51,207 nt of DNA from an uncultured Muribaculaceae bacterium (GTDB taxonomy: Bacteria; Bacteroidota; Bacteroidia; Bacteroidales; Muribaculaceae), in assembly GCA_947179295.1 (NCBI GenBank), contig CAMXAZ010000011.1:1-51207 (forward strand), given 5' to 3'. Under the pieces are notes generated by a model, which saw nothing but the letters and a program-made list of their open reading frames with translations, was not told the DNA's origin and did no database searches. The position numbers and the translations under genes are program-made. Numbering within the stretch: position 1 is the stretch's first letter; every line of letters starts with the position of its first letter. Positions 42,090 through 49,993 of the stretch are shown piece by piece.

Positions 42090-45059
42090 TCAGTAGCGGT
42101 TTCTGCTGAATGGGCAGAGGTCAAACAAAAGCCGTTCAATCTGTTCCGGTGAAATTTTGCCCTCAAGCATCTGTAGCAATTCCTCTTGGCGCGGTTGTCC
42201 CATAGTGAGACGATAAAGAGACAGGACTTTGATCAGCCTGCCATAGCGCGATTCGTCTTCACTCATTGGATACATCGGTACAATGCGTTCGATCTTTTCT
42301 GCTTTGATGTCTTTGAAATGGTTGTCGTTCAACGGCAGATACCAGAATGGGACCATCTCGGAATTATTCCCCTTAAGCTCAGTGGAAGCCTTGCAAAACA
42401 TTTCCTTCCACCGGAATATGTCAGAATAAAGTCTGGCAATGTTTCTTCTGACGGATAGACATTTATAACGATTGATACGTCCTTCGCGTTGTTCCATGTC
42501 CTGTGGATTGGACGGCAGGTTCCAGTGAACTATTTTCCGGCAGTACCAGTGGAAATCAAGGCCTTCCTGCCCTACGGACGTAGAGGCTAAGACAAAGGGG
42601 CGGAACGGACTGTTGAAGGCTGAGCGCACGTTTGTCGCGTGGTTGACATCTTTTTCTGTCTGCTTGCCACTTCCGAAATCAACAGCAAAGTGTTTGCGCA
42701 TAGAGTACTTCTCGTCTGTGCCGAATGTCTGTATTGTATTTACCGGCTGTGGATATGCGGGAGCAAATGACTCCTTCATCCTCGCAACAATGGTTTCTGG
42801 TGATTTATTCTCGCCAATCATATGCACGAACTCGTCAAGCACGGCCTGGAGATTTCCCTGGATACAATAGTCAACCACATTCCGGAAGTAGTTGCTATGG
42901 GCTCTGCAATTGCTTCGGACTGCGGCAATGCCCTGGCGGTTGTTAAAGATGCCCGTCAGTTCTTTGGCTACTTCTTCAGCATGTTGCCTCGCATTTATAT
43001 CGCCCATTCGTTTGAATGTGCGGTAAAGACACATTGCCGGAGCTCCGATTGCCATCGAAGCCAATATCTCATCAGCATCTTTGGGTATGTTTCTGACTTC
43101 CTCGTCAGTATTGTCAAGAGCGATCAGAAGTTGATAGATATCTAAAGAACTTACACGGCTTACGGTTTTGCCGTCAAATTCATTCAGCTTGCTCCTGATT
43201 TTCTTTTTGATCTGCAGTCTGATATCACTTAGAGGTTTTCCAAAACTCTCTTCCGGATCATACATATCTGCCAGAAAAGTTGAAACAGTATGCATGATAG
43301 TCAATGCTTTGGTTTTTGTGCTATCCTTAAGAATCTGGAAATCTTCTTTGTGGTAGGTCTCGTTGGTTCTGCGTAGCAGACGTCTTTCAGCCTCGTATGA
43401 TATCAGGCATGCAAGCATCTTCGGGACCATACCCCAGGAAGAAAATATCAGATATTTTGAAAAGGAGTCATTTCGTGTAAACACATTCGGTTGCTGTGTG
43501 TAGTAAGGATGAGAGGGCGGAATCCATAATAATGACTCTGCACCCGTCGACTTTTTACCTTTGCCGAATATGGTATCCATAATGAAACCGAGCCTTGCAT
43601 TCCGATAGTCTTCAAGGGAGTAGTCTTCAACCTTGTTCCGGTCAAGCAACAGACAATCTTTCCTGATGCCTTTGCCTGCTCCGGCTTTCCAGGCTTCTGC
43701 TATCGTATCTTTCAGTTTGTAGTTGTCCATAAACGAAAGCTGGAATGCCGATGACTTTGTATAATCCACAGGGGCGGAATACACTTTCTTGCCAAATTTC
43801 CGGCAGTTGTCTATCAGATGCTGCATCTGAATGAATGATGTGATGTCGCCAACTGACAGGTAATCATCAACAGGAGGTAAAATTTCATGAATAATGCCCT
43901 CGTTTGATCGTTCGGTTCTTCCCATGACGTTATAAAGCATATTCTCCGCAGAGAGATGCTTCTGCTCGATTGTCTCATCTGTTTCTTTTTCAAGATGCTT
44001 CAAAGCATAAGAGTAATCTCTCCATATGGCCTTGAAATCAATTTTACTGACATCGTTGATGTGCAGGAAATCCATCAGACGATGGAAATCCTTATATTGT
44101 TCGTCATTATTGGAGTCATTGAGTTCTTCGAGCGTTGTGTATGGCTTGTATGGGGTTGCGGATAATAGCAGAATATAAGTATCCTTGTTGGCAAAGAACT
44201 TTCGGGCAATCATGTTTTCCTCTGTTTCAGTAGACCTGTCAGTGTCAATCAGAGAACTGAACTTCTGGAATTCATCCATGATAACAAGGTCAGGTTTCAG
44301 AATCTCAAGACTGATCTCGGCAAAGATCTTTCGAAGCTTAATAGTGAAATAATAGATGTCATTCTGCCATTGAGCATCTTGTCTGGAACCACACAGACTG
44401 ACCAGACGTTGCATGAATGTCTCATCTGCTGAATACATCCGTGAGAGTTTCGAAGTCATTGCCGCGACTATTGTATCTCGGTATTCTGTCAGTTCGGGTT
44501 TGCGCACTTCATTATAATAATGCACGCTCAGCCATTCCCAAGACTTTGGTGCAAAACCGACCAACATGTCAGACAGTCCTTTCAGCTTTTCCTGCGGCTT
44601 GAATACCGGAAGGAGTGATAAGCAGGCAAATATCAGGGCTCTCTCGCCGGCACTGCCGGTACCCCACGTCATCTGGAAAGATGTTGCCGGTGTGAGTGAT
44701 AAAACCAGAGTGTCTTTGCCGGATGCTTTCAGTTCGACTTTTTTGCGGTAGTAGACAAAGTGTTGCATGGAAAGGCGGCTCTGAGATAAATCCACCTTTT
44801 CGCCATCGTCAGAGAGGGTGTCGATGTTCTGCTGGGCAATCTGGAGATTGCAGCAGACATATACAACGCAGTACATGCCATCGTCATCCAGAACCTCTTC
44901 TGACAGTTCGTCTTTGACTCGGCGCACTACTTCAGATGCGACAGTGGTTTTTCCAAGGCCGGCTTCATCTGCTACAAGCACACGTTTCTGACCTTTCTTA
45001 TAGGTCTCAAGTACATGTTCGGCTGTTGCGGCTTGAAAATCCAATGGTTTATTTTTCAT
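42090..45059 (-). CDS. SNF2-like helicase of a three-gene defence cassette
   Basis: 989-residue superfamily-2 helicase/translocase. Motif I is DEAGLGKTT (31-39), motif II MDEFQ (261-265), motif III LLLSATPYK (297-305). Motifs V-VI are FVLASTSVGQEGLDFHWYC and NPQDMEQREGRINR near residue 870, close to RapA/SNF2-type enzymes. A long insert of about 500 residues between the two RecA-like parts is unlike ordinary RapA. It is the last gene of the DUF6361-PLD-helicase operon, 12 bp after the PLD gene. It probably unwinds or translocates on nucleic acid for the PLD nuclease; this is inferred. Confidence 0.88.
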   Translation of the reverse strand: MKNKPLDFQAATAEHVLETYKKGQKRVLVADEAGLGKTTVASEVVRRVKDELSEEVLDDDGMYCVVYVCCNLQIAQQNIDTLSDDGEKVDLSQSRLSMQHFVYYRKKVELKASGKDTLVLSLTPATSFQMTWGTGSAGERALIFACLSLLPVFKPQEKLKGLSDMLVGFAPKSWEWLSVHYYNEVRKPELTEYRDTIVAAMTSKLSRMYSADETFMQRLVSLCGSRQDAQWQNDIYYFTIKLRKIFAEISLEILKPDLVIMDEFQKFSSLIDTDRSTETEENMIARKFFANKDTYILLLSATPYKPYTTLEELNDSNNDEQYKDFHRLMDFLHINDVSKIDFKAIWRDYSYALKHLEKETDETIEQKHLSAENMLYNVMGRTERSNEGIIHEILPPVDDYLSVGDITSFIQMQHLIDNCRKFGKKVYSAPVDYTKSSAFQLSFMDNYKLKDTIAEAWKAGAGKGIRKDCLLLDRNKVEDYSLEDYRNARLGFIMDTIFGKGKKSTGAESLLWIPPSHPYYTQQPNVFTRNDSFSKYLIFSSWGMVPKMLACLISYEAERRLLRRTNETYHKEDFQILKDSTKTKALTIMHTVSTFLADMYDPEESFGKPLSDIRLQIKKKIRSKLNEFDGKTVSRVSSLDIYQLLIALDNTDEEVRNIPKDADEILASMAIGAPAMCLYRTFKRMGDINARQHAEEVAKELTGIFNNRQGIAAVRSNCRAHSNYFRNVVDYCIQGNLQAVLDEFVHMIGENKSPETIVARMKESFAPAYPQPVNTIQTFGTDEKYSMRKHFAVDFGSGKQTEKDVNHATNVRSAFNSPFRPFVLASTSVGQEGLDFHWYCRKIVHWNLPSNPQDMEQREGRINRYKCLSVRRNIARLYSDIFRWKEMFCKASTELKGNNSEMVPFWYLPLNDNHFKDIKAEKIERIVPMYPMSEDESRYGRLIKVLSLYRLTMGQPRQEELLQMLEGKISPEQIERLLFDLCPFSRNRY

Positions 45060-45071
45060 TGTGAAATGTCT

Positions 45072-46820
45072 TTAGTCGGTTGCGGAGACGAAAAGTTTAT
45101 ACATTTTCATGAAGGCCGGTGGGACTACGTCGTCGCTGAGTTTGCTTATCAATCGACCGATCTCCTGAATTTGTTTCGGATTGGTTGCGGCAATCTTCAG
45201 CATTTTCTCATATAGATTGGGGAAAGACAGACTCTCTTCAGGCTTGATTCCATTGCCGGTATGTTCTGTGTGTAAAATTTCGGTTGAAATGTATTGCAAA
45301 GGAGTATCGGTCAGCATTATTTCCAGCAGTCGGAAAAAGTCTTTCGGAGATTTGATGATGCCTTTATATATTTCCTGATCTCTGTCAGACGGCATGCCTG
45401 TGGTTTCTATCTTGACTACAGCGTTATGGTGTGTGCCATCAGGTGTGGTTGCCGAGAAGATGAAAAACTCTGATAATTCATCAGCTTTCAGGTCTTCAAA
45501 TGTCACTCTGCCGGTCCATCGTTGCAAAAGCTCTTTCTTTTGAAGGGGAGCAATAAAAACATCATTCGCCAATCTCATGCTATTTGATGCCACTATTATG
45601 GAAAAGCGTCCGTTGCGGTGACGGGTGATCCGTGCTTTCAAGTCTTCCGCACACATCAATTCCTTCATTGCCGATTCTGCCGCATCCCACTTGATGGCTG
45701 ATGACGCATTTTCTGATGGTTCGTGCAGTGGCGTGAACTTGCTGTCGCTGTTGCCATTCTCATAGAAATTACTCAGAAACTGAGCAGACCGGGTATTGCC
45801 GTATCTATATTTGAGCCTGAGGAGGAATTCTCCATTGCGTTCAAAGGCCGATGTCGTGGCATTGGCAGAACCGAGATACAGATACTGCTCGTTTCGGCCG
45901 TTCCATACGTGATACATCTTTGCATGCAGGTCAATTCCTCTGCATGCAAGATCATCGAGTGTCACGTAGATACCTCCTTTATTTTTGAATTTATCAAAAA
46001 TACTTTTGTCGACATACTCCTTCCGGGTGATCAGCGTCCGGTTGCATCTGTTGTCCGGGTTGAGTCTTGAAATCATTGTTTTGTCGATAAAGGGAGAAAC
46101 AATGATGCTCTCGGTCCCTACAAGATAGTCTTCAGCTTGAGGTAATCCAAAATCGTAGTTGAATAAGTAGGGATAGAAGTCGTAATCTTCAAACGGGGAT
46201 TCGACATTGAATTTTTCGACACGAGCCAGATCGGCAGCCAGTTTTAAAACAGACTTTTTCTGATCGTTACCGATATTTGATTCTTTGACAACAGATTTGA
46301 TGAAATCAATCAGCGGCTTATGCTTTTTGTTATTGACAGATGTCGGTCCGACCTTACCCGTAAGGCAGGCTATACAGTCAATTGTATCTGTAAATGACAG
46401 ATTGCGGCTGGTTACTATCAGTTTAAGGAGTGCGTCTTCCCTGTCGTCGTTGCTGATTTCCCGGATTAACCAAAGCTTAGGATGAAAGTTGGCTTTGTGG
46501 TTCTGCCGGTCAAAAACTTCAAAGATATTACGTTCCATCAACGAATACACCTTGCGTATAGTCGGTGGGACGGCTATTCCTCCTTTGTTGCAGAAGACGA
46601 CAACCTTCTCGCTGCTCTTTGCGATGGCATCTAACAGCAGGTGGTGAGACTCGATGACATTATTGTCCATTTCACCCAACATGCCAAATGCCAGATGGGC
46701 GGTAAGCATGGCCTCAAAACTCAAGCAATAGGTCATTCCAAGTGCAAAGTCGGTAGAATAACCAGGTGTAGGTGAGAGAAGATCGCCATACAGATGTTCT
46801 TTCAGTAATTTATCTGCCAT
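45072..46820 (-). CDS. Phospholipase D-like nuclease-type protein
   Basis: 582 residues with two PLD half-sites. The first is HPK (H113, K115) followed by TSRNLS (137-142); the second is HAK (H299, K301) with GSANATTSAFERNGE (317-331). In this arrangement the family acts as a phosphodiesterase, often a nuclease. The C-terminal 230 residues have no recognised domain. The start overlaps the end of the DUF6361 gene by 11 bp and the helicase follows after 12 bp, so the three are one operon. Nuclease activity is expected from both HxK motifs but is not proven. Confidence 0.85.
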   Translation of the reverse strand: MADKLLKEHLYGDLLSPTPGYSTDFALGMTYCLSFEAMLTAHLAFGMLGEMDNNVIESHHLLLDAIAKSSEKVVVFCNKGGIAVPPTIRKVYSLMERNIFEVFDRQNHKANFHPKLWLIREISNDDREDALLKLIVTSRNLSFTDTIDCIACLTGKVGPTSVNNKKHKPLIDFIKSVVKESNIGNDQKKSVLKLAADLARVEKFNVESPFEDYDFYPYLFNYDFGLPQAEDYLVGTESIIVSPFIDKTMISRLNPDNRCNRTLITRKEYVDKSIFDKFKNKGGIYVTLDDLACRGIDLHAKMYHVWNGRNEQYLYLGSANATTSAFERNGEFLLRLKYRYGNTRSAQFLSNFYENGNSDSKFTPLHEPSENASSAIKWDAAESAMKELMCAEDLKARITRHRNGRFSIIVASNSMRLANDVFIAPLQKKELLQRWTGRVTFEDLKADELSEFFIFSATTPDGTHHNAVVKIETTGMPSDRDQEIYKGIIKSPKDFFRLLEIMLTDTPLQYISTEILHTEHTGNGIKPEESLSFPNLYEKMLKIAATNPKQIQEIGRLISKLSDDVVPPAFMKMYKLFVSATD

Positions 46821-48045
46821 AGTCTTGCTTGGGGTTTCTGATTTCGTTTACCATTGTCCGCACTGTTTCCCAGCGGAATGTGTTAGGGCTTGGATTTCCG
46901 CGCCGTTGATCCCTATAGGCGTTATTGCCAATTTTACTGCGTTCTCTCTTGACGGACTGTTCACGGGTCTTGACAAGCCGGTCAACTTGCGCAAGATCGC
47001 CTGCCCTAATTGCTTCGTAACATTGCTCACAGAATTTAGTGAACATTACGTCAATGGAACGGATATAGTCAAACAGGGCTTCGTACGCTTTCCGATTAGA
47101 TATATCTTCTTTATATTTCTCTAATAATTCGAGATATTTCTTATTGCAATATTGTGCATCATCTGACTTGTCAAAACTATGATAGTAGCTATAGTTGAAT
47201 CTCCAGTCTGCAAGATGGATGAGTTTGGAGAAGAGCACAGATTTTTTGTAAATGTCAAGCACTTCCGGAGCCAGGCCGGCCAATATTCCCTCTATATCGA
47301 AATAATTGATGTCATCAGGAATCTCGAATTCGCTGTCAATGAGATAGGCGAGCATAGAGCCTTGGCAACTTGCATGTATTCTATCTTTGAGAAAGGAAGC
47401 TTCCTTCTCTGACAACGAAAGCTCCATTGTCTTCCCGTTAAAGAAATCATAAGTCTCGCCACAGGTCATGATTAACTGTTTTTCGCCGGGCAAGTCTCCG
47501 GCATCATCTGTCGGGTCATCGCTCTTCAGAATGCGATTGCTATGAGGATTTTCAAAGTGCTTTTTATTAAGTTCAAGAATCAATCGTTCTACTCCGGTAT
47601 CAGGAATAATGCCATATCGGGCTAATCCGCTGCCGTAGATGTAGGCGGGATCATACTTGACATATTTGGTGTGGTCATTCAAAGCTTCTTTTAAGGTATT
47701 TATTCCAGTTATACCTTTTTCTAATGTGTTGACTTGACCATTGTACCATTTTGCCAATTGCCTCGTTATCTGTATTTCAGCTTCTTTGATGAAAGTGCGG
47801 ACCTCGGCAAGGTTTTGAAACTTACGGCTTTTGAATGCGGTATGGTAATATAATGAAGGCAACACGACAAAATACTTGGCATGATGCTGAAGGGTAGAGG
47901 TGCCGGGAAATAAGGTGTTGGAGAAGTGATCACGTACTCTGCCAATACCTAACTCCTCGATAGCTTCTGATTCCTGCAGCAACTGCATCATCTTGGCTAC
48001 ACGCTTCTTTTCTTCTGTGTTGAAGTTTACAAATCCTATTTGCAT
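46810..48045 (-). CDS. DUF6361 family protein, first gene of the cassette
   Basis: 411 residues. The N-terminal signature ELGIGRVRDHFSN (31-43), LFPGTSTLQHHAKYFVVLPSLYY (45-67) is that of DUF6361, a family of unknown activity found with PLD-like proteins and helicases. The C-terminal part has charged, helical stretches and a basic tail (REQSVKRERSKIGNNAYRDQRR). Gene overlap with the PLD gene is 11 bp. No promoter of TAnnTTTG type is visible in the 51 bp upstream, so it may be read from the PH-domain gene's promoter. Confidence 0.82.
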   Translation of the reverse strand: MQIGFVNFNTEEKKRVAKMMQLLQESEAIEELGIGRVRDHFSNTLFPGTSTLQHHAKYFVVLPSLYYHTAFKSRKFQNLAEVRTFIKEAEIQITRQLAKWYNGQVNTLEKGITGINTLKEALNDHTKYVKYDPAYIYGSGLARYGIIPDTGVERLILELNKKHFENPHSNRILKSDDPTDDAGDLPGEKQLIMTCGETYDFFNGKTMELSLSEKEASFLKDRIHASCQGSMLAYLIDSEFEIPDDINYFDIEGILAGLAPEVLDIYKKSVLFSKLIHLADWRFNYSYYHSFDKSDDAQYCNKKYLELLEKYKEDISNRKAYEALFDYIRSIDVMFTKFCEQCYEAIRAGDLAQVDRLVKTREQSVKRERSKIGNNAYRDQRRGNPSPNTFRWETVRTMVNEIRNPKQDYGR

Positions 48046-48096
48046 ATTATAGATGGAGTATTAGACATAAAATCGGCTACGATCAAATCATTGCGC

Positions 48097-48534
48097 TTAA
48101 TGCCAGATCTGTGGGTTTATGTCAAGTAACTGCCGGATAAATTCCTCCTGACGGACCGGAGAGATGATGAGCGGAATATAGCTTTTGAGAATCTTGCGGT
48201 CGGTAAACGTGATTGCCAGACGGTGAGACAACGATGTGGCCGGAGCCGAGAGCACACTCTTTGTCGGTTTAATTTCCTTAATCTTGTCAATAGGGTAGGC
48301 GGTAGGGATAAAGAGCGAGTACACCACCAGTTTGTTGCCGTCAATCCGGTAATAGGTGCCGATAAGTCCAAGTAATATGAATGCTAATATCGCCAGACCG
48401 ACTGTGATAGTGATAAGCAATAAGCTATGGTCGATGAAACAAGGTATCAGACAACACGCCACCGCAAATCCAATGATGAGCCACGTCGACCCATCCCACA
48501 TCGAGTTATATCTTGTTCCTCCGAATTTCTCCAT
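48097..48534 (-). CDS. PH-domain membrane protein
   Basis: 145 residues: two membrane segments (about 18-35 and 38-62, WLIIGFAVACCLIPCFI and ITITVGLAILAFILLGLIG) and a C-terminal PH-like domain (about 63-140: YYRIDGNKLVVYSLFIPTAYPIDKIKEIKPT). It is common as a stand-alone small bacterial PH protein. I chose the ATG at 48534 over the TTG at 48540. It is 51 bp upstream of the DUF6361 gene on the same strand and could share its transcript, which would link it to the cassette; it could equally be an unrelated neighbour. Confidence 0.82.
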   Translation of the reverse strand: MEKFGGTRYNSMWDGSTWLIIGFAVACCLIPCFIDHSLLLITITVGLAILAFILLGLIGTYYRIDGNKLVVYSLFIPTAYPIDKIKEIKPTKSVLSAPATSLSHRLAITFTDRKILKSYIPLIISPVRQEEFIRQLLDINPQIWH

Positions 48535-48572: not shown

Positions 48573-48604
48573 CAAAATTACGATAATTTATTTATTTTGC
48601 CAAA
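48573..48604 (-). promoter_or_regulatory. Promoter of the PH-domain gene and perhaps the cassette
   Basis: On the minus strand TTTG (48604-48601) is followed after 20 bp by TAATTTTG (48580-48573). Start near 48566, leader about 32 nt before the ATG at 48534. It may serve the three downstream cassette genes too. Confidence 0.7.
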
Positions 48605-48655: not shown

Positions 48656-49510
48656 TCAGAATGGTAAAATCATTTCAAATTGCCGGTTCATCATCGGTAT
48701 ATTTCTATCGTTCAAAAAACGATGAAGCGAGATGCCATCGGCAGGAATATTCAGAACTTTTATAAAGTCTGTTTCCATCATCGATACTGCTTTTCGCAAC
48801 AACAGGGAGGCTATGCCTTTGCGGCGAAATTTACGGTCAACTACTATCCGTGTCAGATCGCCGGTGGTACGGTCGATCACGCTGTATCCGACAAGTCTGT
48901 CGGAATGGATAGCTCCGATAAACGTCAGTCCAGACTTGGCTCTTTCGATTGACTCGATGCTATTTTGCCATGAGGGTGTAAAATCGCTGAATGGCTCTGC
49001 TTCTCTCACAGCATCTACATCAATCGTTTCAATCCGGAACGCTGTAGACGGCATGATTGCATCAGGAATCCTGATTTCGGCAATTTTCTGCCTGAAACAG
49101 TCAAACTCTCGAACCGTTTCAAATCCCATTTTGCGATATACATTAATCGCTTTATGGTTGTTTTGCAGCACTTCAAGCAGATATTGCCTTATGCCGGCCT
49201 CTTTCAGAAATGGCAGTGAATGAAGGAAGATTTTTCCGGCAATGCCTTGACCTCGAAAATTTTTAACAGTACCGGTCCCGATATCGTAGGCGGTTGAAAT
49301 CCCGTTATGCTTACCGATTCCGTTTAATGTGAACGCCACAATTTCATCATCTGTAAATGCTGCGAAAGAGAGCCGGGGTTCATATCCACGTCTTATCAGC
49401 ATTGACCGCACTTCTTCCTTGTTAAAACTGATCTCATAATCCGAGAAAGCATTCTCGAATCCCCGAAATAGCGTATCAAAATCAGTATGTTCTAAACTCT
49501 TTATTTGCAT
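48656..49510 (-). CDS. Tandem GNAT N-acetyltransferase
   Basis: 284 residues with two acetyltransferase domains. The first holds the acetyl-CoA loop RGQGIAGK (86-93) and the second RRKGIASL (229-236). The C-terminus (HRFLNDRNIPMMNRQFEMILPF) is the ordinary end of the fold. The substrate cannot be told. The ATG at 49510 (MQIKSLEH) was preferred to a TTG at 49528. The second GNAT gene lies 18 bp upstream on the same strand, so they form a pair. Confidence 0.85.
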   Translation of the reverse strand: MQIKSLEHTDFDTLFRGFENAFSDYEISFNKEEVRSMLIRRGYEPRLSFAAFTDDEIVAFTLNGIGKHNGISTAYDIGTGTVKNFRGQGIAGKIFLHSLPFLKEAGIRQYLLEVLQNNHKAINVYRKMGFETVREFDCFRQKIAEIRIPDAIMPSTAFRIETIDVDAVREAEPFSDFTPSWQNSIESIERAKSGLTFIGAIHSDRLVGYSVIDRTTGDLTRIVVDRKFRRKGIASLLLRKAVSMMETDFIKVLNIPADGISLHRFLNDRNIPMMNRQFEMILPF

Positions 49511-49528
49511 GAGCCTGGAGATTTTCAA

Positions 49529-49993
49529 TCAAAGTTTTATCTGATAGATTCTTGTGCATTCACCCCAGGGATGATGGCAATCACCGATGTAGGAAAAGCC
49601 AAACTTTTCGTAATAACCGATGTGGTCGGTGCATAGGTTCAGCGTATTGAATCCCATTCGCTCCGAGTCTTCTTTGGCTTTTTCAAGCAGAAGCTTCCCG
49701 AAGTTATTTCCTCTGTGAGATTCCTCCACATAGAGAGCCGCGAGCCAAGGGTATAAATCCATTCGTGAATTGAAATCGTTAGTGATTAAACCTGCACAAC
49801 CTATTATTTCCCCGCCATTAAGCAAAAGGTACCATTGAGGCAATGGATTGTCGGCAACAATACAATTGCGCAAACAATCATTGTAAACTTCCATTGAATC
49901 GGGTGTAGCCCATTTGTCTTGAAAATAGCGGATGGCCCGTTCAAGATATTCAGGTTGCGTCCTGATTGAAATAATGTTTAAAGAATATTCCAT
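49529..49993 (-). CDS. GNAT N-acetyltransferase
   Basis: 154 residues, a single GNAT domain with the acetyl-CoA loop RGNNFGK (94-100) and the strand [14 protein letters not shown] before it; the end [23 protein letters not shown] is characteristic of a group close to aminoglycoside/amino-acid acetyltransferases. The substrate is unknown. A TAAATTTG box at 50006-49999 (minus) would place the transcript start at or just before the ATG, so a leaderless mRNA is possible. Confidence 0.85.

Follow-up and report, generated by a model that had tools for sequence, protein, structure and literature searches.

A predicted three-gene Azaca operon, probably acquired horizontally, behind a PH-domain gene in an uncultured Muribaculaceae bacterium

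Do the four closely spaced genes described here form one anti-phage system, and does the first of them, coding for a PH-domain protein, belong to it? The whole stretch of DNA that was analysed (51,207 nucleotides, below called the window) makes up contig 11 in an assembly of 116 contigs that totals 2.85 Mb and is 95% complete. PH, zacA, zacB and zacC are four intact genes, all on the minus strand, at window positions 42090-48534. Features of the locus are the following:

48573..48604, minus strand: Bacteroidota-type promoter before the PH gene, TTTG-N20-TAATTTTG (consensus match, conserved in Duncaniella muris)
48097..48534, minus strand: PH gene, ATG at 48534, 145 aa, predicted bPH_4 PH-domain protein (Pfam bPH_4, hydropathy)
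48046..48096, minus strand: PH-zacA gap, 51 nt, without good promoter (promoter scan)
46810..48045, minus strand: zacA, 411 aa, DUF6361 protein (PADLOC ZacA profile, Pfam DUF6361)
45072..46820, minus strand: zacB, 582 aa, predicted nuclease of the PLD superfamily, a single chain carrying two HKD half-sites (PADLOC ZacB profile)
42090..45059, minus strand: zacC, 989 aa, predicted SNF2-like SF2 helicase/translocase (PADLOC ZacC profile, conserved motifs)

The first-pass annotation, made from the sequence alone, had given the spacing of these genes as 51 bp between PH and zacA, an 11-bp overlap of zacA and zacB and a 12-bp gap between zacB and zacC, in agreement with the ORF coordinates. It had also read the cassette as defence-type, suggested a likeness to Azaca (ZacABC) and proposed a PADLOC search, in which the ZacA, ZacB and ZacC profiles were all matched. 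ZacA scores 250 bits (E 1.3e-74, residues 2-404 of 411), ZacB 412 bits (9e-124, residues 1-581, nearly the whole profile) and ZacC 870 bits (1.2e-261, residues 3-985 on profile positions 11-1018 of 1019), the next-best family for ZacC reaching 59 bits. Since the matches to all three profiles are near full length, the suggested likeness was right; together with conservation of the triad across phyla, they also support the defence-type reading. The three genes are adjacent, ordered and on one strand, and in number, order and domain families they are those of Azaca, from which nothing essential seen here differs apart from a lineage-specific PH gene and promoter upstream. As judged from sequence, zacA-zacB-zacC is a complete three-gene Azaca anti-phage operon, of a known kind and ordinary in its parts.

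Azaca was reportedly described by Millman et al. 2022. Our literature search (titles and starts of abstracts, with few subscription papers covered) found no paper on how Azaca works, and among the listed defence papers containing the word "Azaca" it found none naming it in title or abstract. In published texts, Azaca is placed among systems with unknown mechanism (PMC12926258, a review) and in a Pseudomonas island hotspot (PMC12629846), ZacC is counted as a defence helicase (PMC12278908), and the main text of a rumen survey (PMC11834463) does not name Azaca.

One genome per species (84,980 species) was scanned with a ZacC alignment, which gave 319 relatives; the best 80 were kept. In 71 of these best 80 loci zacA, zacB and zacC occur once each, in this order and on one strand. 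Seven are truncated where their contig stops and so miss zacA, alone or together with zacB, and two (L099, L116) have zacB in two frames; L101, with shortened zacB and zacC, is counted among the 71. These split and shortened genes may reflect decay or assembly errors. Alignments were built from the window and near-full-length proteins (zacA from 71 of 73 loci, zacB from 70 of 77, zacC from 77 of 80). In a FastTree tree, the window and D. muris fall in a well-supported branch of nine rows, which besides Muribaculaceae and Prevotella contains a single further Bacteroidales row (the window and one more of the nine carry no phylum label), and Bacillota rows stand at more than one place. Within 395 genomes of the phylum DUF6361 was matched three times, counting the match in the window, and always next to a zacB.

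Pfam DUF6361 covers residues 4-99 of ZacA (3.6e-16, 59.6 bits with a cut-off of 25). The alignment reveals that E31, G33, R38, P47, G48, K57, Y58, G114, Y137, F338, E362, K371 and R391 are identical in all 72 rows, and that the N-terminal core (ELG, R38-D39, FPG, AKYF) is invariant or nearly so. A profile search of PDB sequences found no credible solved relative of ZacA (best E 0.053). A match to XRCC1_N (E 0.09) was rejected as noise.

ZacB had been described as PLD-like with two intact HxK sites, and both sites, H113/K115 and H299/K301, turn out to be invariant: H113, K115, N140, D148, F244, H299, K301, G317, S318, N320 and E331 are identical in 71 of 71 rows. Pfam PLDc_2 stays below its cut-off (23.1 vs 27 bits). 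Among solved chains, weak profile matches were obtained with NucT (7e-4), 2c1l (0.013) and 4rct (0.022); 2c1l, labelled restriction endonuclease, we take to be BfiI, and 4rct is labelled R.NgoVII. PLD nucleases generally cut without metal, by means of their HKD pair.

In ZacC, motif I (K37), DEFQ (262-265), SATP (300-303) and QREGRINR (from 857) are all present; G34, D262-Q265, S300-P303, Q857, R858 and R861 are identical throughout the 78 rows, and K37 in all but one of them. The claim of a large helicase with complete motifs thus stands, and its single insert of roughly 500 residues does not. SATP and TSVGQEGLDF are indeed 523 residues apart, and FSKYLIFSSW, presumably a motif-IV-like stretch, lies between them at 533; the region is therefore better regarded as two inserts, one of about 230 residues and one of about 280. 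Because it contains columns invariant across the family, the region is no peculiarity of the window. Pfam ResIII and Helicase_C are above cut-off and DEAD is below it. A search of solved chains with the ZacC profile found RapA (E 6e-6, over a 43-residue stretch), and the NCBIfam models DrmD and DpdE score about one tenth of their cut-offs.

The last similarity raises the question of DISARM, which likewise combines a PLD protein (DrmC) with an SNF2-like helicase (DrmD); the operon might restrict phage in a DISARM-like manner, with host DNA marked by methylation. In NCBIfam, ZacC is weakly similar to DrmD (54.5 bits) and ZacB resembles DrmC (12.2 bits, E 0.096); in PADLOC, 55 residues of ZacC align with a DrmA model (36 bits). 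The NCBIfam scores, however, are far under the cut-offs of 610 bits (DrmD) and 133 bits (DrmC). The triad is without methyltransferase, no methyltransferase model was matched by the 40 other window proteins (PADLOC, E 1e-10), and the PADLOC hits of the window include neither a full-length DrmA nor a DrmB. We consider DISARM-like restriction very improbable. Mokosh has a helicase, as has the zac operon, but none of the three zac proteins matches an Mko model in PADLOC up to E 0.1. A PLD-like domain is listed for both Mokosh and Azaca, with tested function given as N/A, in a table of PMC10952713.

The favoured reading is that the operon works through a translocase and a nuclease, and we regard this as very likely. 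The sequence shows to which families the three proteins belong, that their catalytic motifs are intact, that selection on them is purifying and that the operon is patchily distributed; the mechanism is our inference. ZacC would spend ATP to translocate along double-stranded phage DNA, in the manner of SNF2/RapA/DrmD-type ATPases. ZacB, in which two half-sites of one chain would form one active centre, may then act as a PLD nuclease, probably metal-independent, that cuts the DNA engaged by ZacC. ZacA might recognise the target or bridge ZacB and ZacC.

Helicase and nuclease are also joined, with the same logic, in Hachiman (HamAB; PMC12278908), and this suggests another way in which the same parts could be used. 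ZacC would survey DNA integrity as a sensor and free ZacB to act on all cell DNA, with abortive infection as the outcome instead of selective restriction. The sequence evidence does not separate this from direct restriction, either way, but none of the three proteins matches a HamA, HamB or other Ham model in PADLOC up to E 0.1. We regard such a sensor-effector system as conceivable, if somewhat doubtful.

Comparison with the genus-mate D. muris DSM 103720, which has the same PH-zacABC order, allowed selection to be estimated. The dN/dS values (NG86) are 0.21 for zacA, 0.12 for zacB, 0.09 for zacC and 0.14 for PH, as well as 0.06 for a downstream 141-aa gene, 0.07 for a P-type ATPase and 0.19 for DJ-1. 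All seven genes compared are under purifying selection. These values also bear on the idea that zacABC is inert cargo in decay, for which the split zacB of L099 and L116 and the shortened genes of L101 might speak. In the window, however, all frames are intact, zac dN/dS lies at 0.09-0.21 and the catalytic residues are kept, so that we find decay extremely improbable.

The greater AT-richness of the cassette, noticed by eye in the first-pass annotation, is real: zac genes have 42.3-45.1% GC, and among other window genes longer than 500 bp only GNAT1 is as low (43.3%), the next lowest having 46.9%. GC content of the D. muris zac genes is 41.9-44.2%. A ZacB match occurs in only 2 of 27 genomes of the genus and 6 of 247 of the family, drafts included. 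ZacC matches (E <=1e-20) were found on 49 of 72,556 plasmids, 27 non-mobilizable, 20 conjugative and 2 mobilizable as predicted by PLSDB typing. On the one of the 49 that was examined in detail, from Haliscomenobacter, the triad (annotated as DUF6361 family protein, phospholipase D family protein and helicase-related protein) sits inside a type I R-M operon, between HsdM-HsdS and HsdR. Taken together, this is an intact Azaca operon, probably acquired horizontally, in what is presumably a Duncaniella species.

Of 50,697 phage records, a single one, L195 (MT835621.1), has the full zacABC; it is a human-faecal scaffold that bears a phage label but is unverified and without annotation. ZacA, ZacB and PH are without PHROGs family up to E 0.01. 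Viral contigs gave 108 pattern matches and, by tblastn, no relative; since only two short patterns were used, this negative is weak. Genome-wide, seven matches to the tyrosine-integrase family, the only one sought, were obtained, none of them on the window's contig. No clean empty site was found. Nor is a defence island evident in the window: among its 42 further ORFs that reach 80 aa, 40 were scanned with PADLOC, which gave one protein each for the MzaA, mad3, LeoBC and LeoA models, and we take the four matches as generic homology.

Further, we examined the surroundings of zac genes in the 80 loci. Recurring neighbours include WYL regulators, type I R-M, ADP-ribosylglycohydrolase, HIRAN, an integrase and a recombinase, each in at most nine loci; these are raw counts, with one member per cluster checked. 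A HIRAN-domain gene (Pfam-checked) adjoins zacC in L031 (5964-6866), and by clustering it lies one gene past zacC, after a member of a WYL-type-regulator cluster, in L083, L088 and L131. In L076 (3371-4912, MnmE domain checked), L078 and L101, zacABC is found near mnmE/trmE, the 3' end of which is a known island integration site. Two adjacent GNAT-family genes occupy 48656-49993 of the window, between a DJ-1/PfpI gene and PH. D. muris has no GNAT ORF at that site; two pieces 90-94% identical to GNAT1 remain, so the GNAT genes look lost there rather than gained in the window. GNAT orthologues are found elsewhere in L070 (both) and L071 (GNAT1).

There remains the PH gene. Its product matches Pfam bPH_4 above cut-off (4.3e-14) and has an N-terminal hydrophobic stretch by hydropathy. 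A four-gene, membrane-linked version of the system had been suggested; in such a system PH would tether ZacABC to the inner membrane, where it would meet incoming phage DNA. The promoter evidence is consistent with it. TTTG-N20-TAATTTTG, at 48604-48573, matches perfectly what we take to be the Bacteroidota promoter consensus, and the 51 kb hold just two more strict matches when both strands are counted; when the 166 nt upstream were shuffled 500 times, a perfect match never arose, and one with at most one mismatch arose in 3%. It is kept in D. muris with spacing one base shorter. The "near-consensus promoter" assigned to PH therefore exists as a perfect match of Bacteroidota type and not as a sigma-70 promoter; a sigma-70 scan, with 16 sites vs 15.5 expected, is uninformative. 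That no other good promoter precedes the cassette was correctly observed: the best candidate in the 51-nt gap has 3 mismatches of 10. This gap is conserved in D. muris, differing by one substitution and a 2-nt deletion, and a search of the PH-zacA stretch there gave no match with fewer than three mismatches. The PH stop is changed in D. muris, where PH reads three codons further.

With a perfect promoter before PH and no good one in the conserved gap, local co-transcription of PH and zacABC is likely, and in the window zacABC probably rides on the PH promoter, as far as promoter prediction goes. Among 28 loci from Bacteroidota or near kin, four have a promoter match with at most one mismatch within 250 nt before zacA (1.7 expected from shuffles); the window is absent from these four because its promoter lies before PH.

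Sharing of a promoter in Duncaniella is thus the part of the proposed PH-zac link that survives; a role of PH as fourth component does not. By blastp (E <1) with one PH sequence, which could miss a very distant PH protein, PH adjoins zac in one of the 80 fetched loci, that of D. muris, and in the window. At least 500 bp before zacA are visible in 64 of 71 intact loci. The zac loci that come next in closeness, L073-L076, show no PH within contig reach (only 485 bp before zacA in L073). Neighbourhoods of DUF6361 homologues, put forward as the check, show no conserved PH beyond D. muris. Conversely, relatives of PH were detected in 117 of the 247 genomes of the family, and 22 of the 24 genomes with a close PH relative (>=55% identity over >=120 residues, shorter pieces uncounted; window and D. 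muris are among the 24) are without ZacB match. PH as general Azaca component was rejected for its presence beside zac in D. muris alone of 80 loci. The order shared with D. muris and the purifying selection on PH (dN/dS 0.14) would agree with a four-gene system, but since PH is rarely beside zac and mostly occurs without it, the four-gene version is unsupported as a property of the system, and we judge membrane-anchored Azaca improbable. Of the relatives examined, a single sister species has PH next to zac; the gene therefore probably plays a local part only, as passenger of the three-gene operon or as donor of its promoter.

We also looked at the company PH keeps elsewhere. Genes near its relatives code for Fic and HTH proteins, HipA, Schlafen and DEAD/UvrD helicase, and also for housekeeping urocanase and PEPCK. 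Close PH relatives stand in an arrangement Fic - PH - HTH - Fic that is repeated in Muribaculaceae (L036, L038, L042, L155), while L044 has just the PH - HTH - Fic part; the domains of the Fic and HTH genes were confirmed for L036 and partly for L038, the other loci being assigned by clustering. For 33 PH-relative loci, with identities down to 39%, 111 proteins (>=100 aa, within two genes) were compared with 111 control genes from 20 regions of 13 same-family genomes. Beside PH, 10 of 111 match SoFic and 10 of 111 a PDC-S04 model, while the control, hand-placed at round coordinates and not random, gave at most 2 of 111 per model. In total models matched, counted as matches rather than as distinct proteins, control exceeds PH neighbours (142 vs 79), many control matches being to overlapping methyltransferase models. 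Our literature search found no paper tying a PH domain to antiphage function. One could imagine that in Duncaniella Azaca captured a membrane PH protein along with its promoter, and that PH positions the nuclease-translocase at the point of phage DNA entry; we give this little credence, slightly less than membrane anchoring as such.

For the family, the alignments of ZacB (71 rows, two invariant half-sites) and ZacA (72 rows, N-terminal core) provide candidate residues for tests of mechanism. Duncaniella is a genus of the mouse gut, and its copy would let Azaca be tested in a mouse-gut genus.
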